Below, piece after piece: positions 2,996 through 36,453 of a stretch of 64,000 bases of DNA (the first letter of the stretch is position 1; each line of letters begins with the position of its first letter). The DNA lies in the NCBI RefSeq assembly GCF_001647275.1, contig NZ_LRMM01000011.1, positions 1 through 64,000 of the forward strand, given 5' to 3'. The translations under genes were made by a program, and so were the position numbers. The notes under the pieces were generated by a model. It searched no databases. It was not told the DNA's origin and saw nothing but the letters and a program-made list of their open reading frames with translations. This DNA is from Rufibacter ruber. Lineage in GTDB: Bacteria > Bacteroidota > Bacteroidia > Cytophagales > Hymenobacteraceae.

Positions 2996-3067
2996 GAGAA
3001 TCTGCATGTAGGTAAGCGGTTCTTTAGAAGTAACTGTCTACCCCTTTGATGTGAAAGGATGTTCTAA

Positions 3068-7018: not shown

Positions 7019-7126
7019 AGGGGGACTAGGTTCAACGTTTCATCACGGTCTTGAAACGGCGCCCCCGCGTTTTGGTTGGCGTTTCTGAACACCTGGAGAA
7101 GGGAACGGGTGGCCCAAAGCGGGCGT

Positions 7127-7165
7127 CTGTTTTTGGCTTAGTTTCTGAAAAACAGGTCTAAAACG
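7127..7165. repeat. Bipartite CTGTTTT palindrome, copy 6
   Basis: CTGTTTTTGGCTTAGTTTCT paired with GAAAAACAGGTCTAAAACG. In the gap between the divergent DinB-like and DUF3078 genes. Confidence 0.75.
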
Positions 7166-7244
7166 CAAAGCGGAGGGTTGCCTTAGCGGCGGAGTTTTTG
7201 CCTGTGAAACCGTATTTTAATTCTAATGTCTCTACCTTCGCGGT

Positions 7245-7289
7245 AGAACCAGCCCGGTTAAAGGCGCTGGGGCTGTCTGGGCTGGTTCT
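7245..7289 (+). promoter_or_regulatory. Inverted repeat in the leader of the DUF3078 gene
   Basis: AGAACCAGCCC at 7245-7255 pairs perfectly with GGGCTGGTTCT at 7279-7289, 22 bases before the start codon. It could form a leader hairpin or be a protein-binding site. No ligand-binding riboswitch class recognised. Confidence 0.4.
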
Positions 7290-7310
7290 AAAAACTAATT
7301 CTCTTTCAGG

Positions 7311-8195
7311 ATGGGTAAACGAGTACTGCTGCTTTCCTTTTTTCTGTTCTCCTTTGTTTCATTGCAGGCACAAACGGTGGCTGACACCACCTGGCGCCGC
7401 TCCCTTTCTACAGGGCTCAACCTGAACCAGGCGGCGTTCAGTGACAACTGGAAGGCGGGTGGGGTCAGTTCAATTGCGTTGAACACCTTTTTTAACGGTA
7501 GGGCCAACTACAAATGGGAGCGGGTGTCTTGGGACAACACCCTGCAGCTGCAGTATGGCCTGCTCAAAAACAAAGGCGAGGGCATGCGCAAAAGCCTGGA
7601 CCGCCTCTACCTGGACACCAAATACGGCGTGGGGTTCTCCAATGACTGGAACGTCTTTGCCTCGGCTAACTTCTTGTCTCAGTTCACCAAGGGCTACGAG
7701 TATGATATTGATGATGCCGGCAATGATAAGCTGATTTCTAATTTCCTTTCTCCCGGTTACCTGACGTTCGCCCTGGGGGCAGAATACAAACCCACACCAA
7801 ACTTCTCTTTACGGTTGAGCCCCTTTGCGCCCAGGTTTACGTTTCTGGTAGATGAGAACGTGGGGGAGAACGAGCGGTACGGCGTGCCACCCGGTGATAA
7901 AGTGCGCACTGAGATCCTCTCAGGCCTGGTGCAGGTAGACTACCAGAAAGACTTCGCCGCTAACCTGAACCTGAAGCTGAGTTACATCTCCAACCTCAAC
8001 TACAAGCGCATTTCCTTTGATAAAGTTGACCACAGGGTTAACGCAGTCCTTACGGCCAAGATCACCCGCTACATCAATGTCAACCTGATGGGCAATGTGG
8101 TCTATGACCGCGACCAGGACCATTCTGTGCAGTACAGTCAGTCGCTGGGCCTGGGGGTGATGTACAGTTTAGAAGGGATTTCCACCGGGCAGTAG
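7311..8195 (+). CDS. DUF3078 family outer-membrane beta-barrel protein
   Basis: 294 residues. A Sec signal peptide is clear (MGKRVLLLSFFLFSFVSLQA, cleavage near AQT). The rest is alternating hydrophobic/polar beta-strand sequence with many aromatic girdle residues. The segment W..SLSTGLNLNQAAFSDNW.AGG and the end pattern LGLGVMYSLEG match the Bacteroidota DUF3078 family. Probably an outer-membrane barrel of unknown cargo. Converges with the oxygenase gene; only about 30 bases separate the two stops. Confidence 0.85.
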   Translation: MGKRVLLLSFFLFSFVSLQAQTVADTTWRRSLSTGLNLNQAAFSDNWKAGGVSSIALNTFFNGRANYKWERVSWDNTLQLQYGLLKNKGEGMRKSLDRLYLDTKYGVGFSNDWNVFASANFLSQFTKGYEYDIDDAGNDKLISNFLSPGYLTFALGAEYKPTPNFSLRLSPFAPRFTFLVDENVGENERYGVPPGDKVRTEILSGLVQVDYQKDFAANLNLKLSYISNLNYKRISFDKVDHRVNAVLTAKITRYINVNLMGNVVYDRDQDHSVQYSQSLGLGVMYSLEGISTGQ

Positions 8196-8226
8196 CCTGT
8201 GCTTGCTTCTTAGGGGTCAAAACAGG

Positions 8227-8991
8227 TTAAGCGGGCGCCTGGTCCAGGTCTTTGATCTCTTTCTGGTACGCCTTGGGCAGAATGATAGACTTCAGGAACC
8301 AGTCCAGTTTCAGGGCGCGGCTCACTTTGTACCCCTGCAAAATGGGCGGCAGCAGGGAGATCTTCCGGAAGCCCAGCAGTTCTTTCACGCGGTCTGGCAC
8401 CACCATCACCTGCGCCTCCAGCAGCAGCCGGTACCGCACGGTGCCCAAATGCTTCTTGTACTGCTGGAACAAGTCCTGGGTATAGGGACTTTGCGCCAGG
8501 TCTTGCTCTAAATGCTCTGCCCGCATCTGGAGCCACGCCTCATACCTGGTGGGCAGCCCGGTCAGGCCCATGCGGTGCCCCACGCGGTAAAAAACCTCAA
8601 ACACCTCTGCTTTTTCTGAAAGGGTGAGGCTGCGCTCCAGGACTTCAAACGATCTGATGGAGTAGTCAATGAGCATGAACAGCACATCCCGGTATGCCCA
8701 GTCGGGGATGGTGGCCCCGCGTTTGGCTTCCACCCCCGCATGGATTTTGGCCATGGTGTCAATGGCCTTGTTCGCGCCCTGGGTGGTGGAGAAGACTATT
8801 TGCCTGGCGTATGCCACCGTTGAGAAGAGACGGCCCAGCGGGTCAGCGGGAAGCCTGCCGGTGAAGTAAAGCCAGTCCACGGCCTTGTTCAGCGCGAATT
8901 CAGCGGAGGAGCCCGCGAAGATGAAAAGGATGGTGTCGCCTTTTCCCCAGATTTCCCGCACTACTGAGTCTTTCGCTACGAAATAGTCCAT
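8227..8991 (-). CDS. Oxygenase MpaB family protein (DUF2236)
   Basis: 254 residues with the all-helical heme-binding fold shared by latex-clearing oxygenase Lcp and fungal MpaB. Family features: the N-terminal FVAKDSVVREIWGKGDTILF segment, GRLFSTVAYARQIVF, the V.AKRGATIPDWAYRDVLFM region and the YEAWLQMRAEHL helix. Such proteins perform oxidative cleavage or related redox chemistry; substrate here unknown. No operon partner. Confidence 0.8.
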   Translation of the reverse strand: MDYFVAKDSVVREIWGKGDTILFIFAGSSAEFALNKAVDWLYFTGRLPADPLGRLFSTVAYARQIVFSTTQGANKAIDTMAKIHAGVEAKRGATIPDWAYRDVLFMLIDYSIRSFEVLERSLTLSEKAEVFEVFYRVGHRMGLTGLPTRYEAWLQMRAEHLEQDLAQSPYTQDLFQQYKKHLGTVRYRLLLEAQVMVVPDRVKELLGFRKISLLPPILQGYKVSRALKLDWFLKSIILPKAYQKEIKDLDQAPA

Positions 8992-23835: not shown

Positions 23836-24078
23836 ATGGAAGCGACCTGCAATCATTGTAACCACTGGATCCAGGATCAGAAAGTAGTGGAAGTGCAAAG
23901 CAACCAGTTTGGCTTGTGTGATGAACTGTCTGGCAAACCAGCCATGAACCCAGAATTTGTGCTCCCGGTGGTGCATGAGATGGGCATGATGCCCAGCCAG
24001 CCCAAGCCGTTTGAGATGGTGACCGGCGCCCAGTTTGGGTGCAACCACTTTGAAGGCCGCCGCAACTGGATTGAATAA
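23836..24078 (+). CDS. Small cysteine-containing protein of unknown function
   Basis: 80 residues. The N-terminal CNHCNHW (C-x2-C) and later GLCDELSGKPAMNPEF and FGCNHFEGRRN give four spaced cysteines plus histidines, which could bind a metal. No family named. Followed 43 bases later by a strong terminator, supporting a real transcript. Confidence 0.6.
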   Translation: MEATCNHCNHWIQDQKVVEVQSNQFGLCDELSGKPAMNPEFVLPVVHEMGMMPSQPKPFEMVTGAQFGCNHFEGRRNWIE

Positions 24079-24121
24079 CTGATGGCCTATCAAGGCGCAA
24101 AATAAAACTGTGGAACAATGA

Positions 24122-24158
24122 GAGCCGCTGCCAACAAAGGGCAGCGGCTCTTCTATTT
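24122..24158 (+). terminator. Intrinsic terminator of the small Cys-rich gene
   Basis: GAGCCGCTGCC and GGCAGCGGCTC form a perfect 11-bp stem with a 7-base loop, followed by TTCTATTTT. Confidence 0.85.
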
Positions 24159-24553
24159 TAGCCTATCGGTATTATTTCTTGTGATGGTAGATGATTGCGT
24201 CTGATGAAAGGCGACCTTCTAGTGAATTTCATCTAGTAAAACCCTTTCTTAAATGTCCAGCCAATCGTTTAATTCTACTATCTGCTCTCTAAGTATTGGC
24301 TATCTGTCTGCGTACGCTTGTACTGTTTTAGCTACGCGGAATACATCAGCAGCTATTGGTTTATGAGTTGCATGCTTTGAGGAGAGGAACAGCAGAAAGG
24401 TACTTCTTTCATCTATTCTGGCGCGAGTCTCCAGATAAGTGCCGTTGCGTGGTTGGCGTCTCCAGACTTCCGTTTCTCCGTTTGAGGCATAAACTCGTTT
24501 TATCTAATGCCAGACTGAGTGCGGAACACATATTTCGCATGTCACCGGCTGGT

Positions 24554-24705
24554 GGTTCCCGGCGAGTCTGGAGACTCGCAGCACTTATGGTCACGAGTCA
24601 AAGACTCGCGCCAGCGCATTTGTTCTTAACCATCAACATTGCGCAATAAGCCACTCCAAAAGACCTCGTAGCGTCCGGAGGACCTGCGAGCGTCTGCGCC
24701 AATCA
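24554..24705. repeat. Two-copy element with CGAGTC-type hairpin, copy 2
   Basis: GCGAGTCTGGAGACTCG at 24562-24578 and CGAGTCAAAGACTCGC at 24594-24609, with flanks shared with 9955-10100 (TTCCCGGCGAG, CTCGCGCCAG, AGCGTCCGGAGG). A related GCGAGTCTCCAG fragment lies about 130 bases upstream. Confidence 0.65.
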
Positions 24706-24810
24706 CTCACAAAATCCAGAAAATGAACCTAATCCTGGAAATCCTGCTTCTGGCAATTGGAACCTCCCTCATCCTAGCCTTCTCCCCGGGGGAGAAGGAA
24801 CCGCGCCGTT

Positions 24811-24852
24811 TGCGTTTTCGGCCTGTTTTCCTGAAAATAGGCCTAAAACGCA
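24811..24852. repeat. Bipartite CTGTTTT palindrome, copy 15
   Basis: TGCGTTTTCGGCCTGTTTTC and near-inverse arm ending GCCTAAAACGCA. Confidence 0.8.
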
Positions 24853-25028
24853 ACTAATAAATACACCGTCAAAACGCCTGCTCAAAAAGACCTCGTACTA
24901 CTAAGAAGAACTTTTTGCATCTCCGTCCATAGCGGTTGCCGCATCAATACTGGTCTAAATTGCAAAATCACAAATAGCTTCCAGCGATACACTATCAGCA
25001 AACCCATTTCGGGTACTGTATATGTTTA

Positions 25029-27467
25029 TCACTTCCATTCCACCTTCGGGAAGCGGGCTTTTAAAGAGCCGCGCATCAACCTGTATTCTTCCTGCCAGAA
25101 ATAGCGCAAACTGGTCACCACTTTCAAGGGCTTCAAGTCTGGGGAGAGCAAATGCAGGGCCACGCCTACGTCGCCACCGTCAACGGTGGGGTGGTTTTCC
25201 CACGCAAAGATGTCTTGCAAGCGTACTTCCAACACCGGCGGCTGCGCGTTCTCTGGGTAGTAAAGTTCCACCGCGTGGCCGTCTGGCAAGGTAAGCGTGG
25301 CGGGGGCCAGCTCGTCCAGCCGTTCGCGTTGCTCCCGGGTGAGCATGTTCTGGAGCAGGGGCAGCAGGTCAATGTCCAGCAGGTCCTGGCCAATCTGCAC
25401 GTCTTCCAGGTGATAGGCCAGCCACTCGTTACAGGTGAGCAAAAGGGTAGAAGTACTGATATCAGGGAAGCCTTCGGTGGGGTGCCATTTTCTTAGGCAG
25501 AGCACGCGGTTCTGGAACTGCTTCACGGCATCCGAGAAATTAAGCCAATCTTCGCCTTCGCGTTGGATGGTCTCGCAGATGGCGGGGATCAGGAAGCGTT
25601 CGTCGGGCTCGGGGAGGGGTTTGCTCTGGAGCACGATGTTGCCTATGCGCAGGTCGCGGGAGGCCGTTAATTCTCCTTCCTCGGGGTCCCAGGAGACCAC
25701 ATCTTTCTGCTTCACCAGCGGGGCCAGGTCTTTGGGGTTGAGCGGCGAGGCCAGGAAAATGCGGCCCACGCCTTCGCCACCGGCGTGCAGATGCGCGATG
25801 GCCAGCCATGGGTCATGGGCCAGGTCGTCGCGGTGGCCGGCACTGGCGTACTTGCCGTTGGCGAGCTGGAACTGGGCGTTATTGCCGGGGCGGGCGCAGG
25901 CAATGCGCTCGGGGTAGCAGTTGGCCAGCAGGAAACCCGTTTCATAGGGGTCCACGGCGGTGTTTTCAGGTTCAATCTGGAACATCCGCCGGTAAGAGGC
26001 GGCAATCTTGTCAATCTTGGCGAAGCGTTTCTGGTGCAGTTTCTCTTGGCGGGTACGCCGCAAGGCCTCTAGGCGGAGGTTCAGGTCTATACCGGCTTCG
26101 CGGGGCAGCGGGTCGCGTTCTTCCAGCAGGGCGGCAATGTCGGTGGCCAGAGCCAGCTGACCGGTTTCCTGGGCGGCCAGCAGCATGTGGGCCAGGCGCG
26201 GGTGCGTGGGCAGGGCGTGCATGGTGCGGCCGTGCTCGGTGATGCGCCCGTTTTCCAGGGCGTTGAGCTGGTGCAGGGTTTCCTGGGCGTGCAGCAGGGC
26301 GGCTTTGGGCGGCGGCGTGAGCCAAGTAAGCGCCCTAATATCGGTGATGCCCCAGGCGGCCATGTCCAGCACCAGCGGGGCCAGGTCGGCTTCCTGAATC
26401 TCGGGGGTGCGGTGCGGGGCCAGGCGGGCGTGCAGGTTCTCGGTCCAGAGGCGGTAACAGGTGCCGGGGCCTAAGCGCCCGGCCCGACCGGCGCGTTGGT
26501 CGGCGGCGTCTTTGGAGATGCGCACCGTCTCCAGGCGGCTGAGGCCGGTGGCGGGGTCAAACCGCTGGGTTTTGGCAAAGCCGGTATCTACCACCACGGT
26601 CACGCCCTCAATGGTGAGGCTGGTCTCCGCAATGGAGGTAGCCAGCACCACTTTGCGTTTGCCGTTGCGGTCGGGCATGATGGCGGCGTACTGCTTGCCG
26701 GGGGGCAGCATGCCGTACAGCGGGTGAATGGCCACGTCGCGCAGGCCGCGCCGCAGCAGGGCTTCTACTTTTCTGATGTCCTGTTCGCCGGGCAGAAACA
26801 CCAGCATATCGCCTTCTTTCTCTTGCAGGGCCTGGCGCACGGCGCGGTCGGTCATTTCGTGGAGCAGTTGGGCATCGGTCTCGCCGGCGTACTGCACGTC
26901 TATGGGGTATTGCCGGCCCTCGCTCACCACGGCGGGGGCGTTGAGCAGGCGGGTGAGCTGGGGCATGTTGAGGGTGGCGCTCATGACCAGAAGGCGCAGG
27001 TCGGGGCGCTGGGTAGCCTGTGCTTCGCGGGCGAGGGCCATGGCCACATCGGCGTGGATGCTGCGCTCATGAAACTCGTCAAAAATAACCAGCCCCACGC
27101 CCTTGAGCGCGTTGTCTGAGTGCAACATGCGGGTGAGAATGCCCTCGGTGACTACTTCCAGGCGGGTCTTCTCTGAGATGCGGTTCTCAAACCGGATGCG
27201 GTAGCCCACGGTCTGGCCCACTTCTTCGCCCAGCAGTTGCGCCAGCCGCTCGGCAATGGTGCGGGCCGCCAACCGGCGGGGTTCCAGCATGATGATTTTC
27301 TGCCCCTTCAGCCAGGCCTCGTCTAAGAGGGCCAGCGGCAACAAGGTACTCTTGCCCGCCCCCGGAGGTGCGTTCACAATCAGCGTGTTCTGGGCAGCGA
27401 GGTGTTCCCGCACGGAAGGGATAATCTCCCGAACGGGCAGGTCTATGGTAAATGGGTTGAAAGGCAA
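25029..27467 (-). CDS. hrpB: ATP-dependent helicase HrpB, copy 2
   Basis: 812 residues, intact. Walker A APPGAGKST at 33-41, LEPRRLAARTIAERL, DEFH at 130-133, MSATLN, then SIAETSLTIEGVTVVVDTG and DQRAGRAGRLGPG, and a full HrpB C-terminal domain ending in WQEEYRLMRGSLKARFPKVEW. Paralogous to 47-2592; both share motif order and C-terminal layout but differ widely, so this is an old duplication or separate acquisition. GC-rich like the core genome. The first 216 bases of its 5' end are repeated at 28375-28590 on the far side of a toxin-antitoxin pair. Confidence 0.95.
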   Translation of the reverse strand: MPFNPFTIDLPVREIIPSVREHLAAQNTLIVNAPPGAGKSTLLPLALLDEAWLKGQKIIMLEPRRLAARTIAERLAQLLGEEVGQTVGYRIRFENRISEKTRLEVVTEGILTRMLHSDNALKGVGLVIFDEFHERSIHADVAMALAREAQATQRPDLRLLVMSATLNMPQLTRLLNAPAVVSEGRQYPIDVQYAGETDAQLLHEMTDRAVRQALQEKEGDMLVFLPGEQDIRKVEALLRRGLRDVAIHPLYGMLPPGKQYAAIMPDRNGKRKVVLATSIAETSLTIEGVTVVVDTGFAKTQRFDPATGLSRLETVRISKDAADQRAGRAGRLGPGTCYRLWTENLHARLAPHRTPEIQEADLAPLVLDMAAWGITDIRALTWLTPPPKAALLHAQETLHQLNALENGRITEHGRTMHALPTHPRLAHMLLAAQETGQLALATDIAALLEERDPLPREAGIDLNLRLEALRRTRQEKLHQKRFAKIDKIAASYRRMFQIEPENTAVDPYETGFLLANCYPERIACARPGNNAQFQLANGKYASAGHRDDLAHDPWLAIAHLHAGGEGVGRIFLASPLNPKDLAPLVKQKDVVSWDPEEGELTASRDLRIGNIVLQSKPLPEPDERFLIPAICETIQREGEDWLNFSDAVKQFQNRVLCLRKWHPTEGFPDISTSTLLLTCNEWLAYHLEDVQIGQDLLDIDLLPLLQNMLTREQRERLDELAPATLTLPDGHAVELYYPENAQPPVLEVRLQDIFAWENHPTVDGGDVGVALHLLSPDLKPLKVVTSLRYFWQEEYRLMRGSLKARFPKVEWK

Positions 27468-27575
27468 GGGAGGGAGAATTAGGAATTAAGAATTAGAAAT
27501 TAGGAATGAGGTGGTAATTGGGTTAAGTACTCAAGGCCCACCGCTTCCTTTAAGGGTAGCGTAAAGGAGAATTGC

Positions 27576-27851
27576 TTATCTGGTGTAGTGGTAGCGGCAT
27601 TGGGCTACCTCACATACTTGATTCATTCCTCTTTCTCCCACAATACGGTATACCAGGCGGTGTTCCTGGGTGATTCTTCTGGACCAAAATCCTTTAAGGC
27701 CATGCTTCAATGCTTCAGGTTTGCCAATTCCTTCAAAGGGAGTGCGTTGAATCACCTTTAAAAGGTCATTGATTTTGGTCACCATGCCTGGGTCTGTGCT
27801 TTGCCAATACAGGTATTCTTCCCAGGCTTGCGCGGAAAAAGTAATGTTCAT
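27576..27851 (-). CDS. yoeB: Txe/YoeB family toxin (mRNA interferase)
   Basis: 91 residues of RelE/YoeB fold; the family cleaves mRNA at the ribosomal A site. Family pattern: N-terminal ITFSAQAWEEYLYWQSTDP, middle PFEGIGKPEALKHGLKGFWSRRIT and the end EHRLVYRI...QCRYHY, which retains the Glu, Arg and His/Tyr positions used in catalysis. Start two bases after the antitoxin stop, so one operon. Confidence 0.92.
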   Translation of the reverse strand: MNITFSAQAWEEYLYWQSTDPGMVTKINDLLKVIQRTPFEGIGKPEALKHGLKGFWSRRITQEHRLVYRIVGERGMNQVCEVAQCRYHYTR

Positions 27852-27853
27852 GC

Positions 27854-28132
27854 CTATTCTGCCACTCCTGTTTTTGAATCTGGAAAGGTGAAAGGCACCG
27901 TCTCACCCGCATTCAATTGAGCAATAGAAGTTTGTAGTTTGTTGCGGTTGGCTTGGCTGGAGAGTAGATACTCGGTTTCCTGCAGGGCATTGTATTCTTT
28001 CAAAGAGATCAGCACCACTGCCTCATCATTTTTGTTGTTTCGTGGCACTATGATGGTCTCTCCAGATTGGATGACCTCATCTAAATACGCTTTGATTCTG
28101 TTACGCAGGCTGGTGATGGTAATAGCTTTCAT
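27854..28132 (-). CDS. yefM: YefM/Phd family antitoxin
   Basis: 92 residues. Phd/YefM DNA-binding N-terminus MKAITITSLRNRIKAYLDEV followed by the usual SGETIIVPRNNKNDEAVVLI strand pair and SLKEYNALQETEYLL. The C-terminal half (about 60-92) should wrap the YoeB toxin. Expected to repress its own operon with YoeB; matching TGTACA boxes lie just upstream. Confidence 0.92.
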   Translation of the reverse strand: MKAITITSLRNRIKAYLDEVIQSGETIIVPRNNKNDEAVVLISLKEYNALQETEYLLSSQANRNKLQTSIAQLNAGETVPFTFPDSKTGVAE

Positions 28133-28160
28133 GGCTCCCGTTCTTCAATTGAAAGATAAA

Positions 28161-28205
28161 TGTACGAAAAAAAAGCGTACATTTATATGTACAGAATAAT
28201 GTACA
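28161..28205 (-). promoter_or_regulatory. TGTACA operator of the yefM-yoeB operon
   Basis: Four TGTAC-type hexamers within 45 bases: TGTACG at 28161, CGTACA at 28176, TGTACA at 28188 and TGTACA at 28200. E. coli YefM-YoeB binds TGTACA cores, so this is a likely autoregulatory site. Confidence 0.75.
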
Positions 28206-28374
28206 ATTTAGTTTCTGTGGAAACAGTAAACCCATTGAAGTAGAAGTCTTCAGTATAAGGCCATTTTTGGTGATAATACCCTATAACAGGAATGATGTAC
28301 GAGGACTAAAAACTGATACAATTGCATATTAGAAGCCATTCCCAAAGTCATTTCCTCTGCCTATCTTCTATGGA

Positions 28375-28590
28375 AATGGTGCGGGCGGCCAACCGGCGGG
28401 GTTCCAGCATAATGATTTTCTGCCCCATCCCCCAGGCCTCGTCTAAGAGGGCCAGCGGCAACAGGGTGCTCTTGCCCGCCCCCGGAGGCGCGTTCACAAT
28501 CAGCGTGTTCTGGGCGGCAAGGTGTTCCCGCACGAAAGGGATAATCTCCCGAACGGGTAGGTCTATGGTAAATGGGTTGAATGGCAAGGG
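28375..28590 (-). pseudogene. Duplicated 5' fragment of hrpB
   Basis: 216 bases align without gaps to the start of hrpB copy 2 (27255-27470), with 13 mismatches counted by eye. The fragment encodes the first 71 or so residues, including Walker A APPGAGKST, from ATG at 28587, and then leaves HrpB sequence at AARTIS. Several differences are silent. Same orientation as hrpB, so the toxin-antitoxin pair is bracketed by direct repeats. Confidence 0.9.
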
Positions 28591-28739
28591 TATGAGGGTA
28601 TTTATGACGTGTTTATTTTAGTCAAAGTTAAAGACTAAGTGACAAAAGGGATAAAGTGGTTTCTGATACTTTAACTTTTTGAATTAACAAAAAATAATGT
28701 ACTTTTAAAATGTTTTAATATTTATTAAATTTTACAAAA

Positions 28740-30485
28740 GTGATAAAGAAAGTTGAATTAACTAATTTTAAAAGATTTCAATCAACAATATTTGAATTAA
28801 AGACAAATAGTGTTTCTGTTATAGCAGGAGGGAATAACTCAGGTAAATCTTCAGTCCTGCATTCATTGGCTGTATGGGAGTTTGCAAAACTATATTTGAT
28901 TAATGAGAAAGGAAGTAAATCACTATTGCCAAGCTTTAATGGAGATGGAATAGGTATAAGCTTTGACGACTTTACTCCTATTAATATTCCATCTCTTAAA
29001 TACTTGTGGACAAACTTAAAGCCAATTGCAAGTTATAGTCTTAAAATAAAATGCTATTGGGATTTACCTGAGAAGCCAGATAGATTCCTTGAAATATCAT
29101 TTTCATTAACTCAAGAGCGACTATTTATAAAGCAAACCTCTTCAAATTTGTCTCATGGGGATAAACTTCCTACAATAGCCTATCTGCCTCCATTTGCTGG
29201 TATTAGTGATAGAGAACAATGGTTTTCCCAAGCCGATAGAAAAAAGATGATAGGACGTGGTTTAGCGGGTGCTGTTCTTCGTAATACTATAGTGGAAATG
29301 TTCTTAGTTAATCTATCCAAAAGAAATTCTCTTAAAATAAATAACAAAATTCCACGTGCAAGTTTACGTCAGCTGAAAGCTAGTGATCCTTTCGAAATTT
29401 TAAACACATTGCTTTGTGAAATATTTAATGTAAATCTTTTTCCTCATAATTTTAGCCCGCTCTTTCATAATTATGTGAAGGTTGACCTTGCTAAAGGTAA
29501 ATTTGAAAATGGCCGTTTTAAGCCTTTTCCTTCATATAATAAAAGGGATATTATGGTAGAAGGAAGTGGTTTTTTGCAATGGCTTAGTATTTATACTTTT
29601 GCACTTGATGCAAATATTGACGTTCTTTTGTTAGATGAACCTGATGCACATCTTCACTGCAGTCTCCAAACTTTATTAATTGATAAGTTAGTAAATGTTA
29701 GTGATTTGAGTAATAAGCAAGTTTTATTAACTAGTCATTCAACTGAAATTTTGAAATATGTAAGTACCACAGATATATTGCAGGTAAGGGGGAGTAGGGT
29801 AAGTTATTTAAATCAAGAAAGCCAAAAAGTTGCCTTGATTGGTGGTTTAGGGACTGAGTATTCGCCTATGATAAATAACTTGCAAAGATTTAAAAGGGTT
29901 TTATTTGTTGAAAATACATCTGATGCAGAGTTTTTGAGAATTTGGTGCGAAAAATTAGGCTTAGTTTGGCCGCAAAATTTAGTAATATGGTCTTTTGCGA
30001 ATAAGCATGACCAAAGGAAACAATTATTTCATCATTTAAAGGCTGAAATTCAGGGTTTGATCGGATTAAGTTTAGAAGATAGAGATAATAACCTATACGA
30101 AAATACTAATGCTAGTTTAAATGAGACATATCCTGACTTTGATTCGGATGGTAGCCAATTAAAGTATAGAAGATGGAGAAGATGGGAAATGGAAAATTAT
30201 TTAATTTGTCCTCCAGCTATTTCAAGGCTTGCAAATGTTGAGGAAAGTGATGTTCGAGCGATTATACAGGCCAAAAGTGGGTTTATTATTCCTGAAAATT
30301 ATACTTTGTCTGATAGACAAAATAATACTAAGCCACTTTTTGATATCGCTGGTAAAGAAGTTATAGCTATTCTTGAAAACGAATACAATTTTAATAAAAA
30401 AGAAATTGCATTAGAGATGACCGCCTCTGAGATATTTGAGGATCCTAAAACCTTAATTAATGAGTTAATTCAAATGTGTTTATAA
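28740..30485 (+). CDS. ABC-class ATPase fused to a TOPRIM/DUF4435-like domain, candidate phage-defence protein (PARIS- or OLD-like)
   Basis: 581 residues from a GTG start (MIKKVELTNFKRF). The N-terminal part is an SMC/ABC-type ATPase: Walker A GGNNSGKSS at about 30-38, Walker B plus signature region VLLLDEPDAHLHCSLQ at about 293-308, and the switch His in LLTSHSTEIL. The C-terminal part resembles TOPRIM domains of OLD/DUF4435 type: RVLFVENTSDAEFLRIW (acidic Glu, about 385-401), SLEDRDNN (about 443-450) and RRWEMENYLI (about 479-488). ATPase plus DUF4435 is the composition of PARIS (AriA/AriB), also known as fusions; class 1 OLD nucleases are the alternative. The gene is strikingly AT-rich against its neighbours, stands alone and has no visible partner, all suggesting recent transfer. 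Confidence 0.75.
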   Translation: MIKKVELTNFKRFQSTIFELKTNSVSVIAGGNNSGKSSVLHSLAVWEFAKLYLINEKGSKSLLPSFNGDGIGISFDDFTPINIPSLKYLWTNLKPIASYSLKIKCYWDLPEKPDRFLEISFSLTQERLFIKQTSSNLSHGDKLPTIAYLPPFAGISDREQWFSQADRKKMIGRGLAGAVLRNTIVEMFLVNLSKRNSLKINNKIPRASLRQLKASDPFEILNTLLCEIFNVNLFPHNFSPLFHNYVKVDLAKGKFENGRFKPFPSYNKRDIMVEGSGFLQWLSIYTFALDANIDVLLLDEPDAHLHCSLQTLLIDKLVNVSDLSNKQVLLTSHSTEILKYVSTTDILQVRGSRVSYLNQESQKVALIGGLGTEYSPMINNLQRFKRVLFVENTSDAEFLRIWCEKLGLVWPQNLVIWSFANKHDQRKQLFHHLKAEIQGLIGLSLEDRDNNLYENTNASLNETYPDFDSDGSQLKYRRWRRWEMENYLICPPAISRLANVEESDVRAIIQAKSGFIIPENYTLSDRQNNTKPLFDIAGKEVIAILENEYNFNKKEIALEMTASEIFEDPKTLINELIQMCL

Positions 30486-30593
30486 GGTAAAAGTCAAAAA
30501 CTTTAACCATTAATAAAAAAGTGATTTAAGCGATAATGGATGAGTCACTATCTAAATAATATATAGATATTATTTTAGTACAACATCCTTCGT

Positions 30594-30790
30594 TCACCCC
30601 ACAACCAACCGCTCCTTAAACAGCACATCCCTAATAGATTCCTCTTTCTTGAAGAGCATTTTGGCGAAGGGCATACCGGGTGAATTTTAATGTTCTGTTC
30701 ACGGGCATACACTACAGCCGCCATGACCAAGGCCTTGCCCATGCCTCTCCCCGTGAGGTACAGACTTGATTCTATTCGCAAGCTAACCAT
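30594..30790 (-). pseudogene. Remnant of a small GNAT-like N-acetyltransferase
   Basis: GRGMGKALVMAAVVYAREQN is the acetyl-CoA pyrophosphate loop of the small GNAT (Acetyltransf_CG/YjdJ-type) family. The frame then shifts at about 30669-30671: restoring one C continues as PFAKMLFKKEESIRDVLF to a stop at 30594. The usual N-terminal strands are missing too, so this is truncated as well as frameshifted. Probably non-functional. Confidence 0.65.
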
Positions 30791-30809
30791 TCTGCCACAA
30801 GATTAAAAT

Positions 30810-30849
30810 CCTGTTTTCGGCCTGATTTTGGAAAAAGAAGCCAAAAACG
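30810..30849. repeat. Bipartite CTGTTTT palindrome, copy 16 (decayed)
   Basis: CCTGTTTTCGGCCTGATTTT with a degraded right arm (GAAGCCAAAAACG). Between the Fic gene stop and the GNAT remnant. Confidence 0.65.
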
Positions 30850-30881
30850 TACAGACGTATTTTAGGGAGGTTAGATTTGCT

Positions 30882-32426
30882 CTATTCCTCTGGTTCAAAA
30901 ACCCGCTTATAGCGCGTTTCAATCTCAAGTACTTCTTCTGGCGTTAAGGCGGCAAACTCTTTGGCTTTGGCGCGGGCAGATAAAGTGCCCTGGCCCTGTT
31001 GCAAAAACTGTATTAGCAGGGCTACAGTTTTATCGGGCATCTGGAAACGGTCATCTAGCCAAGCCTTCAGGCGGTCGTATTTCTGGAGGTACGCTACTTC
31101 TTCGGGGATGATGTGCTGAATGGTATAGTCCACGCAATGGAACAGGAATTCCGCTTGCGGGGTGGCGTCAAAGTAGCGGTAATAGTCTATGGTCTCGTTG
31201 AGTACTTCTATGTTATGGTCTGGGGTGGTGCGCCATTGAATGAAATCCAGCAGGGGGTGCGAGTAGGTTTCCAGCACCTGCCGGTACGCGGCCATGTGCT
31301 CCAGAATAGCCGCCGACACCGGAAAGATGATGCCCTGCGGTGTAAAACGCATAGCCGCCAGCAGGTGGTGCAGGAGATAGCGGTGCAGACGGCCGTTGCC
31401 ATCTACAAACGGGTGAATGAACACAAACCCGAAGGCCACTTGCGCGGCCGCCAGTACCGGGTGGTAATGGGCGTTTTCTAAGAGTTGGGCACTTGCCAGT
31501 AGACCTTGCATCAAGGCTGCCAGGTCTTGCCAGCGCGCAGAAATATGGTCGGGCAGGGGCTCGCCGGTGCTTCGGTCATGTTCCCCCACAAACCCGCCGG
31601 CGGTGCGGTAGCCCAGCGCCGTGAACCGGCTGTCGCCAATGACTAACTGTTGCAAGCGCAGGAGTTCGGCTTGGCTTAACGGCCGGGCACCCGCCTGCCC
31701 AATGGCCTGGCCCCACCGCACGGCCCTGGTTTGGGTGGGGCGCTCGCCTTCAATGCTAAACGAGGCCTTGGAATCTTTGAGCAGCAGAAAAGCCGAGGTA
31801 CGCAGCAACACATCTTTGTGCACCCCTTTGAGCGTGCGGCTGATCTTCTCGTCCAGTTTTTCAGCTATGTATTGCTCCAGGGCATTGGTTTTAGAAACCA
31901 ACGGGCAGAAAGCCGGGGTGCCGGGCAGGTTGTTGAGAATACGGTGCCGGGCAGAACGGGTGCCCCCTGCTAACCCGTACTGTAGTTTCTCCTCCAGCAG
32001 CGGCACATAGTTCTTGATGGTTAGGTCTGGGATAGGCAGTTGTTCTTGCAGGAGCCATTCATACAGAAACCAGACTTTGCGCATGTACTGCCCCGTGTAT
32101 TCTTGCTGGATCAGGGCCACCACCTCGGCTGGCCCAAGTTGCCCGAACAGCTTCTTGAAAAACAGCAGGTTGACGCCTTCATACTTCAGGGCAAACGTTA
32201 GATGACCGGCCAAAGAGTCTTGCGGGTGGTAAGCTGGCGGAAAAACGGCCCATTGGGCCTGGCTGTATTTGCGGTTCTTTCTGCTGATGATGGCCAATTT
32301 CACCGGAAGCGGTAACGCCAACCCATAAAATTGAATAAGCGCCCCGTAACCTACCAACATACCCGGCTCCGGCGCGGTACGGCCGTGAAAAACGAGTATT
32401 TCCTGAGAAAATTGGGTAGGAGGCAT
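30882..32426 (-). CDS. Fic family protein (probable AMP transferase)
   Basis: 514 residues. The Fic active-site motif HPFVDGNGRLHRYLL lies near residues 333-347, fitting HxFx(D/E)GNGRxxR. Upstream, KASFSIEGERPT (about 217-228) fits the class II inhibitory helix (S/T)xxxE(G/N), so the enzyme is likely autoinhibited. The N-terminal 200 residues form an unassigned domain, and the C-terminal part contains a winged-helix-like region. Fic enzymes usually AMPylate proteins; the target is unknown. Monocistronic, next to the accessory region. Confidence 0.88.
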   Translation of the reverse strand: MPPTQFSQEILVFHGRTAPEPGMLVGYGALIQFYGLALPLPVKLAIISRKNRKYSQAQWAVFPPAYHPQDSLAGHLTFALKYEGVNLLFFKKLFGQLGPAEVVALIQQEYTGQYMRKVWFLYEWLLQEQLPIPDLTIKNYVPLLEEKLQYGLAGGTRSARHRILNNLPGTPAFCPLVSKTNALEQYIAEKLDEKISRTLKGVHKDVLLRTSAFLLLKDSKASFSIEGERPTQTRAVRWGQAIGQAGARPLSQAELLRLQQLVIGDSRFTALGYRTAGGFVGEHDRSTGEPLPDHISARWQDLAALMQGLLASAQLLENAHYHPVLAAAQVAFGFVFIHPFVDGNGRLHRYLLHHLLAAMRFTPQGIIFPVSAAILEHMAAYRQVLETYSHPLLDFIQWRTTPDHNIEVLNETIDYYRYFDATPQAEFLFHCVDYTIQHIIPEEVAYLQKYDRLKAWLDDRFQMPDKTVALLIQFLQQGQGTLSARAKAKEFAALTPEEVLEIETRYKRVFEPEE

Positions 32427-32592
32427 GGTGCGTTCTTAAAAACAGGTCTGTCAAAGATAGGAAAATCAGGTAGAAGTCAGTAAAGTCAGGTTGAAATAAG
32501 TAAATGCTGTTAAAAACAGGTACGGAATGTCTGTTGAACAGGAGGCAAGCCGTTGCTAGAAAGTTCCACCGTTAAGTTCGTTCTACTTCATT

Positions 32593-32629
32593 CCGTTTTT
32601 CTGTTTTCCAGAAAACAGGCCAAAAACAG
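32593..32629. repeat. Bipartite CTGTTTT palindrome, copy 17
   Basis: CCGTTTTTCTGTTTTCCAG with GAAAACAGGCCAAAAACAG; it ends just before the stop of the next minus-strand gene. Confidence 0.75.
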
Positions 32630-32632
32630 ATG

Positions 32633-33118
32633 TCACCGGTTGGCAGGCGGGTCCTGGTACACCACCGGGCTGCACTGGCTGAACCTGACAGGCGCCTGCA
32701 CTGAAAGGCGGTGCGTTTGAATGAACTGGTGCATGAGCCGCTGGAACTCAGCCTGTTTCTGGGCATCTACTTCCTGCGGGTTCAGGTGAAAGAGGTAGTA
32801 GTCAACAGAACCGTCTGGGCTGAAATAGAAGCGGTTAAAGCAGCGGGTAGGTTTGCCCCAGGTGAAGTTGTTCTGGGCTAGGTGCCGGCCCAGCTCCTGC
32901 AGCAGTTGCTGGTACGCCTGCACCAGCCTTGCCTGGTCGTTGCCCCTGAACACCGCCAGGCTGGAGTCTGCGTGAACCGCACTTTTGTACCGGGCGTCTA
33001 GTTTCTGCATAGAATGGGCCGTACCTTCGGCTTGCTGAAACGAGGAAACCACTTTCTGGGCCTTTGCTACCTGCAGCAGGCCCATCAAAAGGAGGAAGAA
33101 GAAGAATTGCTTTTTCAT
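32633..33118 (-). CDS. Exported protein of unknown function
   Basis: 161 residues. A signal peptide is clear (MKKQFFFFLLLMGLLQVAKA, then QKVV). The mature part begins with a helical region (QQAEGTAHSMQKLDARYKS) and ends in a strand-rich segment containing NRFYFSPDGSVDYYLFHL and two cysteines. No domain named. Monocistronic, between two palindromes. Confidence 0.6.
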   Translation of the reverse strand: MKKQFFFFLLLMGLLQVAKAQKVVSSFQQAEGTAHSMQKLDARYKSAVHADSSLAVFRGNDQARLVQAYQQLLQELGRHLAQNNFTWGKPTRCFNRFYFSPDGSVDYYLFHLNPQEVDAQKQAEFQRLMHQFIQTHRLSVQAPVRFSQCSPVVYQDPPANR

Positions 33119-33190
33119 GGCTCAGGGCTGGTTTTGCCCAAGATAAACATCTTTGTACATTATAACTAATAATTTAGTTGATGCTAGTGT

Positions 33191-33236
33191 TTTCTGTTTC
33201 TGGCCTGTTTTGGCCAAAACAGGCCAGAAACAGAAA
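33191..33236. repeat. Bipartite CTGTTTT palindrome, copy 18 (perfect)
   Basis: 46-bp perfect palindrome with 23-base arms and no loop, centred on TTTTGGCCAAAA. In the gap between the divergent exported-protein genes. Confidence 0.9.
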
Positions 33237-33347
33237 GAGGTTTGGGCTGGGCTACGGTGCGAGGTGTAACTTTTTAGCCAGCTTCCAAGTTTTTAGCATT
33301 GTATTTGCATTCGGCTTGCCGTCTTACTTTTTCCCTCTATCCCTGAA

Positions 33348-34007
33348 ATGAAACGCCTATTCCTCCTGACCGCGCTCTGCCTTTCTGTTTTTGTGAACGG
33401 GCATGCGCAGACTATTTCCAAGATCAACTTTGACGCCATCAAAACCGCCATTTCATCTTCTAAGTCAAAGCTGTATTACCCTAACCTGCTCAAACGCTAC
33501 CACGCCAATGACGGCACCCTCACCCCAGAAGAATACAAGCACCTGTACTACGGCTGGGTCATGCAGCCCGGCTACAGCCCCTACAAAGGCAATGACAAGG
33601 CAGATGCCCTCAACGAGATGCTGCTCTATGAAAAGTTTCCTGAGATTGTGAGCACGGGTAAGAAAATCCTGGCCACAGACCCGTTCAACATGGATGTGAT
33701 GTACCTCATTCACATGGCCTACGGCGAAATGAACAACCAGGCAGAGAGCAAGAAGTGGCTGGTGAAGTTTGACGGGCTCATGCAGGCCATCAAAGCCAGC
33801 GGCAACGGCCGGTCACCAGAGACGGCGGTGGTTCTGGCCGCCCCGCGGGATGAGTACATGTTTTTAACGGTGGTGGGGCTGCGGCAGAACGGGCCGGTGC
33901 AGACCATTGACAACAAGTACCACCTCATCAACATCAAGTCGCCTAACAAGCTCAACCTGACCCAGGTGTACTTTAATATTCAGAAGCCCCTGGCCAAGAA
34001 AAAGTAA
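33348..34007 (+). CDS. DUF4919 family exported protein
   Basis: 219 residues with signal peptide (MKRLFLLTALCLSVFVNGHA, then QTISK). The mature protein is helical, TPR-like in places, with YYGWVMQPGYSPYKGND and the end pattern YFNIQKPL typical of the Bacteroidota DUF4919 family. Function unknown. Possibly co-transcribed with the lipoprotein gene that follows. Confidence 0.8.
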   Translation: MKRLFLLTALCLSVFVNGHAQTISKINFDAIKTAISSSKSKLYYPNLLKRYHANDGTLTPEEYKHLYYGWVMQPGYSPYKGNDKADALNEMLLYEKFPEIVSTGKKILATDPFNMDVMYLIHMAYGEMNNQAESKKWLVKFDGLMQAIKASGNGRSPETAVVLAAPRDEYMFLTVVGLRQNGPVQTIDNKYHLINIKSPNKLNLTQVYFNIQKPLAKKK

Positions 34008-34081
34008 CCTGCCTGAAAAAGGCCAGATGCGTCTCTGTGCCCCGGTTGGCAGGAGATGCGTTGGGCCCTACTACCACTGCT

Positions 34082-34537
34082 ATGAGAAAAAGAATGTTTG
34101 CCGTCCTGGCCGTGGGCCTGGGCCTGGCGTCATGCCAGCAGAACCAGAATGCCAGCAGAGAAGAGGCGGCAGAAGACAACAGCAACCAGGTGGCGGTGGC
34201 CCTTTGCGAGGTGACTACCACAGACTCAGTGACCACACAGAGCTGGCTGGTGGGGGAGTGGGAGCTGAAAGGCATCAGAACCAACTACATGGGCTCAAAA
34301 GAAGACGAGTTCCTGACGGGTGAACAGGTGGGAACGCCTAAGCGCCTGACTTTTTTTGAAAACGGTGAATACGAGGAGCGGCTGGACGGAAACCTGCAGG
34401 GCGAACGGCAGCCGTTCAAAATTGTGGGGCAGAGCCTCATGCCGGTGGGGTACCAGTACTGGTTCTGCGGCGAAAGAACGCTGGTCATCAGCAATGTGGC
34501 CGCAGACGGCGTGACCGAAGTCTACATCAAGCAATAA
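34082..34537 (+). CDS. Lipoprotein of unknown function
   Basis: About 151 residues from the ATG giving MRKRMFAVLAVGLGLASCQQ; the lipobox LASC marks Cys19 for lipidation. The mature part has an acidic linker, then a lipocalin-like segment WLVGEWELKGIRTNYMGS followed by strand pattern, typical of small Bacteroidota lipocalin-type lipoproteins. An upstream frame extension to 34037 is unlikely to be translated. Confidence 0.7.
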   Translation: MRKRMFAVLAVGLGLASCQQNQNASREEAAEDNSNQVAVALCEVTTTDSVTTQSWLVGEWELKGIRTNYMGSKEDEFLTGEQVGTPKRLTFFENGEYEERLDGNLQGERQPFKIVGQSLMPVGYQYWFCGERTLVISNVAADGVTEVYIKQ

Positions 34538-34545
34538 CAAGAACC

Positions 34546-35181
34546 TTGGGGCCAACCTCTCTTGCTCAGAAACTTCCTGAGGCTTTCTATACCCGCCCAG
34601 ACGTGGTGACCATTGCGCGCGAACTGCTGGGGAAACACCTCTGCACCCGCTTTGACGGAGTGCTGACCCGCGGCCTGGTAGTGGAGACCGAGGCGTATTC
34701 CGGCACCCGGGATGCCGCCTGCCATGCGCACCTGGGCCGCCGCACTAAGCGCACAGAGATCATGTACCACCAGGGTGGTGTGGCGTACGTGTACCTCATT
34801 TACGGGATCTACTCTCTGTTCAACGTGGTGACCAACGCAGAAGGCACGGCAGATGCGGTGCTCATCAGAGCCATTGAGCCCTTAGAAGGCATAGAAGAAA
34901 TGCGGCTGCGCCGAAATCTGGCGAAAATAGAGCCGCGGCTTACGGCCGGCCCCGGGCTGCTCACGCAGGCGCTGGGCATTTCTACCCGGCACACCGGCGC
35001 AAGCCTGACCGGCTCTGAGATTTGGTTTGAGGACCGGGGGCTAGAGGTCCCGGAGCAGGATATCCTGGAAGGCCCGCGGGTGGGGGTGGCCTACGCCGGG
35101 GCAGATGCCCTGCTGCCCTGGCGCTTCCGGCTCAAAGGCAGCAGGTGGGTGAGCAAGGCCAACCCTAAATACCAGGTATAG
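34546..35181 (+). CDS. DNA-3-methyladenine glycosylase (AAG/MPG family)
   Basis: Base-excision repair glycosylase removing alkylated purines. 211 residues, normal length. Family segments: LLGKHLCTRFDGVLTRGLVVETEAYSG region (catalytic Glu in VETEAY), HLGRRTKRTEIMYHQGGVAY, YLIYGIYSLFNVV and AGPGLLTQALGI. The frame opens with a TTG at 34546; no ATG is suitably placed, so the start is uncertain. Only 8 bases follow the lipoprotein stop, so the genes may be coupled. Confidence 0.9.
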   Translation: MGPTSLAQKLPEAFYTRPDVVTIARELLGKHLCTRFDGVLTRGLVVETEAYSGTRDAACHAHLGRRTKRTEIMYHQGGVAYVYLIYGIYSLFNVVTNAEGTADAVLIRAIEPLEGIEEMRLRRNLAKIEPRLTAGPGLLTQALGISTRHTGASLTGSEIWFEDRGLEVPEQDILEGPRVGVAYAGADALLPWRFRLKGSRWVSKANPKYQV

Positions 35182-35221
35182 CGTGTATGGTTCTCTTTAC
35201 CGGCTCACGTAAAGACATTTC

Positions 35222-35260
35222 CTGTTTTTGCCTGTTTTGGCCAAAACAGGCCAAAAACAG
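35222..35260. repeat. Bipartite CTGTTTT palindrome, copy 19 (almost perfect)
   Basis: CTGTTTTTGCCTGTTTTGG and CCAAAACAGGCCAAAAACAG, between the convergent glycosylase and methyltransferase genes; shares its TTTTGGCCAAAA centre with copy 18. Confidence 0.9.
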
Positions 35261-35274
35261 AACTGCTGTCAGGC

Positions 35275-36453
35275 TTAAACTTTGCGGCAGAGCAGCAGAA
35301 TTGGCTTGTTCTGCCTATCTGTGGTGGCAAACAGGTAATCTTCGCCGCCTTCCTTCAGTTTTAACTTATCGCGCAGCTGCGCCACCGTTAAAGGGTAATT
35401 GCGCACGGTGATGTTGGCTTTTCTCTGGGGCAGCAGCCTGTGCATTTCTTTGGCGCTGGCTTTTGGTTTGGCGCTGATTTCAAAAATCCGGCCCGGAAAC
35501 GCCCGGCACAAATCTGTTGAAGTATAGAGGTGGCTGTTGCGGTGCAGCTTCTGCACCTGATAGTGCTGTGAGAGCCACTTAAACGCCCCGGCTTTGAGCA
35601 GCGCGGTATTGGGCTCATAGAGGTACCGGAGCGGTTCTGGGGTATAAATGGCCGCAGCCGCTTCCTCTTCTTGTCTGGTAAAGGTGATTTCCTGCGGCGC
35701 CTGCCCCGGCCGCAGGTGCACCGCGGTTATTTGCGGGGTTTCTACCGTCTCCTGTTCAAGTAAGTACAGCACCTCTTTGACTTCGTTCTGCACGGCAATA
35801 ATCCATACCCTGGTGACACCGGGCAATTCCTGCAGTGCCAGGTCCAGGTCCAGCATGGGGGCCGTTTTCAATAGCACTTTTTTCGCTTTGCTGAGCAGGA
35901 GGGGCAGCAGGCGCAGCACATCTGGCTCACAGTCCTGCAGAAGGTGCACCCGCTCCCGGGCCTGGCCGCGCCGGGCGGGGTCCAGGTAGATGACATCCAG
36001 CGGGGCAGAGAGGGTTTGCAGAAAGTCTTCGGCCTCCTGGTGGCACACCTGCACGTTTTGCACGCCCAATTGGGAATAGTTGTAGGCAACGGTCTGCGCC
36101 AGTTCGGCCTGCCGCTCCACATAGTACACCTGCCTGTACTGCTGCGCAAAATAGAAGGCGTCTACCCCAAAGCCGCCGGTCAAATCTGCCAGTGTCTCTG
36201 CAGGCACCAGGGTTGCCTTGTAGGCGGCGGTGAGCTCAGAGGAACTCTGCTCCACAGAAAGGTTGGCAGGGAAAACCAGCTCCAGGTTAGCCGCCCAGGC
36301 AGGGAGCTTGTTCTTGGCCTTCTGCCGTGCCTGCACCTGCTGCGCCAGTTTGGGCACGTTGAGCCGGGGCCACTTTTGGGCCTGCAGCACCAGCTGCGCC
36401 GGGTCAGCGGTGAGATGGTCTTCTATAAATTTCTTTTCGGCGGAAGTGAGCAT
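35275..36453 (-). CDS. Class I SAM-dependent methyltransferase with THUMP-like domain (PG1098 family)
   Basis: 392 residues. The N-terminal helical part is followed by the SAM-binding fold: ADLTGGFGVDAFYFAQ (about 88-103), YYVERQAEL and VIYLDPARRG (about 155-164), the motif IV position. The C-terminal part is the ferredoxin-like THUMP-like domain with the RKANITVRNYPLTVAQLR signature. Probably an RNA methyltransferase; target unknown. Confidence 0.82.
   Translation of the reverse strand: MLTSAEKKFIEDHLTADPAQLVLQAQKWPRLNVPKLAQQVQARQKAKNKLPAWAANLELVFPANLSVEQSSSELTAAYKATLVPAETLADLTGGFGVDAFYFAQQYRQVYYVERQAELAQTVAYNYSQLGVQNVQVCHQEAEDFLQTLSAPLDVIYLDPARRGQARERVHLLQDCEPDVLRLLPLLLSKAKKVLLKTAPMLDLDLALQELPGVTRVWIIAVQNEVKEVLYLLEQETVETPQITAVHLRPGQAPQEITFTRQEEEAAAAIYTPEPLRYLYEPNTALLKAGAFKWLSQHYQVQKLHRNSHLYTSTDLCRAFPGRIFEISAKPKASAKEMHRLLPQRKANITVRNYPLTVAQLRDKLKLKEGGEDYLFATTDRQNKPILLLCRKV

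Follow-up and report, generated by a model that had tools for sequence, protein, structure and literature searches.

An ATPase–TOPRIM fusion gene of Rufibacter ruber belongs to a clade found inside type I restriction-modification operons and as single-gene cargo

PrrC is described as an ABC ATPase–HEPN anticodon nuclease encoded with hsdMSR, silenced by the restriction-modification (R-M) enzyme and freed by Stp, an anti-restriction peptide of the phage (PMC3710099). PARIS, which its authors liken to PrrC, is triggered by Ocr without need for the R-M enzyme, and fused (AriAB) forms of it are described (PMC9122126); AriB has been proposed to be a two-metal TOPRIM ribonuclease that cuts tRNA-Lys (PMC12409363). 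Class 1 OLD is defined as a single gene (PMC10568477), BREX recruits TOPRIM-linked OLD ATPases as backup effectors (PMC12839542), and type I R-M operons with embedded defence genes are on record (PMC11411939). Here we analyse a gene at 28740–30485 on the forward strand of a 64,000-nucleotide stretch of Rufibacter ruber DNA (contig NZ_LRMM01000011.1; hereafter, the window), which encodes a 581-residue fusion of an ABC ATPase and a TOPRIM domain. Because of what this literature shows when set beside the genomic contexts of the gene and its relatives, an ATPase-gated TOPRIM abortive nuclease is the likeliest explanation; the gene probably encodes a one-polypeptide abortive-infection nuclease of OLD/PARIS type.

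The open reading frame (ORF) is intact, from a GTG start, backed by full-length relatives that begin at the same residue (MIK...), to a stop codon included at 30485. A first-pass annotation, made from the letters alone, had proposed that one protein joins an ABC ATPase to a TOPRIM domain; this holds, and all the motifs that it listed are present. The N-terminal ABC/OLD-type ATPase domain (approximately residues 1–370; 28740–29849) matches Pfam AAA_15 (1.8e-20, 74.3 bits, cut-off 32.1) and AAA_21 (1.1e-15, 58.9 bits, cut-off 27), both of which occur in all 14 proteins scanned (E<=1). It carries a Walker A motif (AGGNNSGKSS, residues 29–38; 28824–28853), the stretch VEGSGFLQ (residues 273–280; 29556–29579), which we take to be a signature-like motif, a Walker B/D-loop (VLLLDEPDAHLH, residues 295–306; 29622–29657) and an H-loop (SHS, residues 332–334; 29733–29741). 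The C-terminal part (residues 376–581; 29865–30482) comprises a TOPRIM domain and a helical tail, with E391 and D395 (29910–29924) in TOPRIM motif 1, which includes FVEN (residues 389–392), a D-x-D formed by D447-R448-D449 (30078–30086) within LEDRD (residues 445–449) and a WEMENYLI motif (residues 482–489; 30183–30206).

One hundred alignment positions are invariant across 13 clade members, the Walker A/B, H-loop and TOPRIM acids among them. In all 13, G30, N32, N33, G35, K36 and S37 of Walker A, V273–Q280, L298–H306, H333 and S334, E391 and D395, the D-x-D, W479 and Y487 are unchanged; because these residues do not vary, the motif pattern is beyond chance. E485 is conserved in 90% or more of the sequences in A3, an alignment with 14 rows, and D449 is missing in the distant relatives L052 and L053. 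No HEPN family was found by Pfam in the window protein or in the 14 proteins scanned.

The full-length predicted structure had a mean predicted local distance difference test score (pLDDT) of 84.2 and a predicted template modelling score (pTM) of 0.63. Its first Foldseek match was OLD nuclease 6p74 (E 3.9e-13), with chains of retron PtuA and of GajA ranked next. By VIA-align, the ATPase half matched PtuA (Z 21.6, residues 1–373) and AriA (Z 19.0, residues 1–353). Because VIA-align on the full model reached residues 1–373, the C-terminal half was folded separately (pLDDT 89.6, pTM 0.87), and its predicted fold is TOPRIM. The two top VIA-align matches were PARIS chains, 8ux9_A (Z 10.0, 172 residues aligned, root-mean-square deviation 4.1) and 8v46_D (Z 9.1), which we take to be AriB from their length of ~305 residues; they were followed by OLD (9.1–8.3), GajA (7.8), Eco8 (6.6) and Eco2 (5.6). 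Rows 1–18 were all PARIS, OLD, GajA and retron Eco8/Eco2 chains, with unrelated folds from 5.5. Bp OLD also reached Z 9.1, putting the lead of AriB over OLD at ~1 Z or less; an AriB-like fold of the TOPRIM half is therefore favoured by the models, not proven.

The first-pass annotation had seen a PARIS-like composition, possibly that of a divergent subtype, and a DUF4435-like motif in the C-terminal domain. Part of this is supported: an OLD-type ABC ATPase and a TOPRIM domain lie in one chain, each half has a fold counterpart in PARIS (AriA for the ATPase, AriB for TOPRIM), the best PADLOC models for the window protein were AriA (2.5e-22), NsnB, AbiLi and GajA, and its first PDB match by sequence was AriA (0.00088). 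The PADLOC fused AriAB model matched all 14 proteins scanned (best 1.8e-26) and the window protein at 1.8e-14, most strongly over residues 295–495, yet several ATPase models outscore AriAB on this protein. The published PARIS rule combines AAA_15/AAA_21 with DUF4435 (PMC9122126), and here only the ATPase part is found: DUF4435 (PF14491) was absent at E<=1 from all 14 proteins scanned (11 clade members and three distant ones; L036 and L153 were outside this set). An hhalign comparison with six DUF4435 proteins, drawn from nine loci of other genomes with L139, L140 (single longer frames) and L141 left out, gave a probability of 7.9 over 20 columns, which correspond to a common IENY motif. DUF4435 membership is thus not supported, the likeness coming down to the D-x-D and IENY motifs. 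One DUF4435 protein (L135) matched the family hidden Markov model in the TOPRIM region at ~9e-5 (small ORF set, unfiltered), which at the sequence level hints at distant kinship.

We do not file the clade as PARIS, because DUF4435 is absent in 14/14 proteins and the profile comparison does not establish a link, though it may well work likewise. A true fused PARIS, in which the ATPase would sense Ocr-like DNA mimics and free an AriB nuclease that cleaves tRNA-Lys, is unlikely: the fused forms already described, the AriAB matches and AriB as top fold match speak for it, whereas the missing DUF4435, the low profile probability and the narrow lead of AriB speak against. The clade also differs from PARIS in that the nearest kin of the window protein lie inside R-M operons. 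A tree that included two AriAB-model matches (L131 and L133) drew two long branches together and does not locate the clade relative to PARIS. DUF3226 was sub-threshold in six of the 14 rows of A3 (best 3.6e-5), the window protein not among them.

Likeness to OLD class 1 and class 2 (GajA) lies in the ATPase and TOPRIM domain in one chain, the top Foldseek rank of 6p74 and TOPRIM Z scores of 9.1 to 6.7. We weighed the possibility of a class 1 OLD nuclease, which as a one-gene system would degrade phage DNA directly through its TOPRIM domain, as P2 Old does, and consider it doubtful. The window copy is a single gene, copies occur in P2-like viral contigs and the OLD TOPRIM domains score well (Z 9.1 to 8.3); against this, OLD-like_TOPRIM (PF20469) was sub-threshold in only five of the 14 proteins at E<=1 (best 0.014), the window protein not among them, and the four closest relatives lie inside R-M operons, in contrast to the single-gene definition of class 1 (PMC10568477).

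Other ATPase–nuclease systems resemble the gene in part. For Gabija, no UvrD-type (GajB) partner was present among the neighbours examined (window, L003, L004, L068 and L153), and the helicase neighbour in the window, hrpB, is DEAD/HrpB_C rather than UvrD and occurs in 16/16 genomes of the genus. PtuA (the Septu and retron type I-A effector ATPase), which topped the Z scores of the ATPase half, acts together with PtuB, an HNH protein encoded separately, and the titles of the matched entries name PtuA:PtuB; no PtuB was noticed beside the ATPase–TOPRIM gene, although no search aimed at it was made. HEC-04 and IbfA, compared here by description, are likewise single-gene ATPase–TOPRIM fusions with a reported anti-phage effect, and HEC-04 is likewise an embedded gene (PMC12111858); IbfA has 518 residues against 581 in the window protein. 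PMC11411939 cites one preprint, the source of HEC-04, for HEC-05 and HEC-06. A close relation to HEC-04/IbfA was not seen among nine plasmid records that match the window protein at 22–28% identity: none of them was enterobacterial, and none covers 80% of the query.

The closest relatives of the window protein lie inside type I R-M operons. All four full-length relatives at 52–59% identity do so: L036/L068 (G485, 59%), G1009 (L143/L153, 57%), and L003 and L004 (54% and 52%), from two Bacteroidota metagenome-assembled genomes. HsdM, HsdS and HsdR were each Pfam-confirmed in all four loci. In G1009, hsdM, hsdS, the gene and hsdR are consecutive on one strand, with gaps of 6 and 14 nt around the gene; 28 nt lie between hsdS and the start of the gene in both L003 and L004. 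The order in L003 is hsdM, hsdS, the gene, a CBASS-like set (cyclase 2.6e-116, E2 2e-54, TIR effector 1.9e-75), AbiLi/AbiLii-like genes and an hsdR that runs off the locus; in L004, hsdM, two genes that no PADLOC model matched, hsdS, the gene, AbiEi/AbiEii and hsdR; and in L036/L068, hsdM, a matchless 303-residue gene, the gene, hsdS, a 144-residue frame without a Pfam match and hsdR. In a rough control with the Hsd proteins of L004 and L036 as BLAST references, no Hsd match was found in any of 11 distant-relative loci (L069–L079) or nine viral contigs (L040–L048). Two further full-length relatives at 44% identity (L005 and L006) are too short for R-M context to be judged and are excluded from this count. 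The first-pass description of the gene as stand-alone thus applies to the window and viral-contig copies, which are single genes without a partner, but not to the four closest relatives. Two of these R-M operons hold additional defence-type genes, the CBASS-like set and AbiL-like genes at 10312–14730 of L003 and the AbiE pair at 8501–10206 of L004.

In a first tree, the window protein, L036, L003, L004, L005 and L040–L047 (13 sequences) grouped at 99/99 against more distant relatives, and the window protein paired with L036 at 97/97. A second tree, to which L153 of G1009 was added and from which the near-copy L045 was left out, grouped the window protein with L036, L153, L003 and L004 at 100/100; the 100 invariant positions given above are those of the 13 clade members in this second set. 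No firm branching order inside the R-M group emerged once G1009 was added, and for this reason escape of the window copy from an R-M operon is suggested by the sequences rather than shown.

The layout hsdM-hsdS-gene-hsdR of G1009 is that of prrC. Like PrrC, the clade fuses an ABC ATPase to a nuclease-type domain and is embedded in an hsd operon; unlike PrrC, which ends in a HEPN anticodon nuclease, it ends in TOPRIM, and the window copy has no adjacent hsd genes. In the mechanism that we propose, the N-terminal ABC ATPase would dimerise and sense infection, ATP binding or hydrolysis would license the C-terminal two-metal TOPRIM domain, and the licensed domain would cut nucleic acid, so that cell or phage is stopped. 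Nuclease activity is likely, and an anti-phage role very likely; dimerisation and the trigger of the ATPase are what we infer. By analogy, the substrate may be host tRNA, as for AriB, or DNA, as for OLD/GajA, and we hold each of these only tentatively.

By analogy with PrrC and PARIS, the R-M-embedded relatives may be a second line released on phage inhibition of restriction, with the window copy keeping the sensing as a single mobile gene, a view that we regard as somewhat doubtful. Sensing of lost restriction is the trigger that we tentatively favour by the same analogy. Elsewhere in the window genome, on other contigs, HsdM_N is matched five times and Methylase_S seven times, and therefore R-M systems that could be guarded exist in the same cell. 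A bolder and rather unlikely version would make the clade the TOPRIM counterpart of PrrC, silenced by the type I R-M enzyme of its own operon and freed by an anti-restriction protein, with some copies having left the operon for prophages and chromosomal cargo sites, where the anti-restriction protein itself would, as in PARIS, be what they sense. If true, it would provide a direct evolutionary link from R-M guarding to stand-alone sensing.

Copies in viral contigs were found by an alignment-based scan (28 loci, nine of them close: L040–L048, 39–42% identity); a single-sequence scan of the same contigs gave no match, and when the alignment was widened a rescan returned 36 loci but added no close member. 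No close relatives were found among 50,697 phage records. The viral-contig copies are single genes in P2-like and Mu-like contigs. In L044 and L045 the gene is inverted relative to its two neighbours, a tail-completion gene (phrog_26) on one side and a baseplate-assembly gene (phrog_9992) on the other; in P2 this position falls between genes S and V. The phrog_9992 baseplate gene also stands on one side of the gene in L042, with a P2-type major head gene nearby, and is weakly matched (7.9e-7) on one side in L046, where a tail-terminator gene (phrog_65) stands on the other. Portal (phrog_113) and major head protein (phrog_371) genes flank the gene in L043, which we take to be Mu-type by gene order, and a phage transposase (phrog_310) and portal lie beside it in L041. 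An integrase lies some kilobases off in L040, as does a replication-nicking protein (phrog_91) in L047. In L048, phage-gene matches are all of unknown function, and the frame of the gene itself (6643–8477) is broken into two pieces.

The distribution of the gene is sporadic. It is present in one of 16 genomes of the genus, that of the window, and a full-length relative occurs in two of 200 genomes sampled from the family (its own and G485); at E<=1e-10 the family count is six of 200, the four besides these two being partial at 28–31% identity. At E<=1e-60, the window genome was the only one of 390 in the order sample (which lacks G485), and two of 395 genomes in the class sample matched. At E<=1e-10, a sample of 395 genomes from the phylum yielded 22 with a match, the window genome included, the others at 27–36% identity. 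A host DNA-repair or housekeeping SMC/RecF-like ATPase, to which weak SMC_N, RecF and Rad50 matches in the P-loop and the matches of SMC heads to the ATPase half would point, is highly improbable given this rarity in genus and order, the AT-rich acquired DNA and the viral-contig and R-M contexts; no housekeeping orthology was seen.

The gene also stands out from its surroundings in base composition, as the first-pass annotation had noted: its GC content is 0.32–0.33 (1-kb steps) against 0.60–0.67 for hrpB and 0.55–0.58 for the Fic gene. The hrpB helicase gene (25029–27467, reverse strand; Pfam HrpB_C 9.8e-32), present in 16/16 genomes of the genus, anchors the site, and the AT-rich cargo beside its start codon varies by genome. 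By eye, an AT-rich block is present at hrpB in eight of the 16 genomes (the window genome, G448, G442, G408, G451, G413, G404 and G428). We scanned ten ORFs, a subset, from the seven other block-bearing genomes, and PADLOC matched PDC-S06 (1.2e-165) in G448, PD-T4-4_A (3.5e-97) in G408, a type III-A retron RT (1.9e-139) with PRTase (3.7e-79) in G413, a partial NsnB/PDC-M55A-like ATPase (3.2e-38) in G404 and a generic UvrD-type helicase (2.4e-21) in G451. Because the blocks differ between genomes and include defence-type genes, the ATPase–TOPRIM gene appears to have arrived recently, as cargo, at a site where such genes are taken up again and again. The earlier suggestion of a possible defence gene is consistent with this sporadic, acquired gene at a defence-cargo site.

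Cargo may also decay, and the gene could have been carried in and be no longer expressed or functional in the window genome. Adjacent hrpB and GNAT fragments show rearrangement, and upstream there is only a weak candidate promoter, a script match to TTG-N18-TACTTTT (28679–28706, forward strand; 34–61 nt upstream of the gene). The pattern is of Bacteroidota type. We consider decay improbable: 581 codons are open without a stop, the catalytic motifs are kept and the candidate promoter lies 34–61 nt before the start.

Several observations weigh against reading the gene as an abortive-infection nuclease. At E<=1, none of the TOPRIM families in Pfam matches the window protein, and for the C-terminal half Foldseek reached only 3.6e-3 (OLD) and 0.019 (AriB), with no match at E<=0.001. 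The mutual placement of the ATPase and TOPRIM halves in the model is uncertain at pTM 0.63. The SMC head 5xei matched the ATPase half at Z 19.6, and therefore this half by itself is not AriA-specific. The clade is rare, and the counts are correspondingly small. The R-M link is limited to four loci, with none near the window and viral-contig copies; these copies therefore cannot depend strictly on a single R-M partner linked to them. The Hsd control drew on few BLAST references and on a hand-picked 11 of the 24 distant genomes. At the hrpB site, no AT-rich block was seen by eye in the other eight of 16 genomes, and the cargo scan gave no family match in G442 and a marginal helicase only in G428.

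Single-gene ATPase–TOPRIM defence is known already (HEC-04 and IbfA, PMC12111858; class 1 OLD, PMC10568477). What appears to be new is a clade with an AriB-like TOPRIM domain that takes the place of prrC in type I R-M operons and also occurs as a lone cargo gene, in viral contigs and beside hrpB; the listings and excerpts covered on TOPRIM fusions embedded in R-M operons (PARIS, OLD, PrrC, BREX-linked, IbfA/HEC-04) do not describe it. PARIS and PrrC both act on phage-disarmed restriction, with unrelated nucleases and differing gene arrangements, and a clade in both the prrC position and a single mobile form offers close homologues in which to ask what the ATPase responds to, the R-M enzyme or the inhibitor from the phage. 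The region at hrpB, in turn, suggests that the genus has a small cargo site on the chromosome into which different defence-type genes are repeatedly taken.

The remaining neighbours named by the first-pass annotation, a YefM-YoeB pair, a Fic gene and gene fragments, are real. The yefM-yoeB pair (27576–28132, reverse strand; Pfam YoeB_toxin 6.4e-34, PhdYeFM_antitox 1.9e-20) is a separate unit between two copies of the hrpB 5′ end, one of which is a duplicate (28372–28590, reverse strand; 94% identical to 27252–27470) that forms the left edge of the cargo site. A GNAT acetyltransferase gene remnant (30593–30753, reverse strand), common to G448, G442 and G428, forms the right edge. Beyond it, the Fic-domain gene (30882–32426, reverse strand; PADLOC candidate PDC-S24, 3.5e-194) is a separate unit present in two of 16 genomes of the genus; in G451, which lacks the ATPase–TOPRIM gene, it lies 422 bp from hrpB.

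Three of the 16 genomes (~8 kb compared) carry the opening ~220 bp of hrpB a second time: in the window at 28372–28590 (original 27252–27470), in L120 (G451) at 2871–3100 and in L122 (G404) at 2518–2727. Each extra copy sits past a separate gene unit and immediately before AT-rich cargo, an arrangement that the integration of small circles bearing the hrpB 5′ end might leave. In G439, a partly AT-rich stretch at the hrpB site encodes a secreted-looking protein. In L005, three ~130-nt repeats (2–154, 908–1042 and 3496–3650), attC-hairpin-like by eye, flank the gene, which may by this sequence pattern be an integron cassette; 2,051 bp are common to L005 and L006 at 99.5%, in different contexts.

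The window genome holds another OLD/AriA-type ATPase gene, L092 (G000:C104:3085-4332), within a 744-residue open frame (AriA model 6.5e-39). Rfam gave no match within 24000–36000 of the window, nor in L005 or L006. Around the site, a dispersed intergenic 37-nt repeat family occurs at 24814–24850, 30813–30849, 32592–32628 and 33191–33236, with one copy within a perfect 46-bp palindrome.

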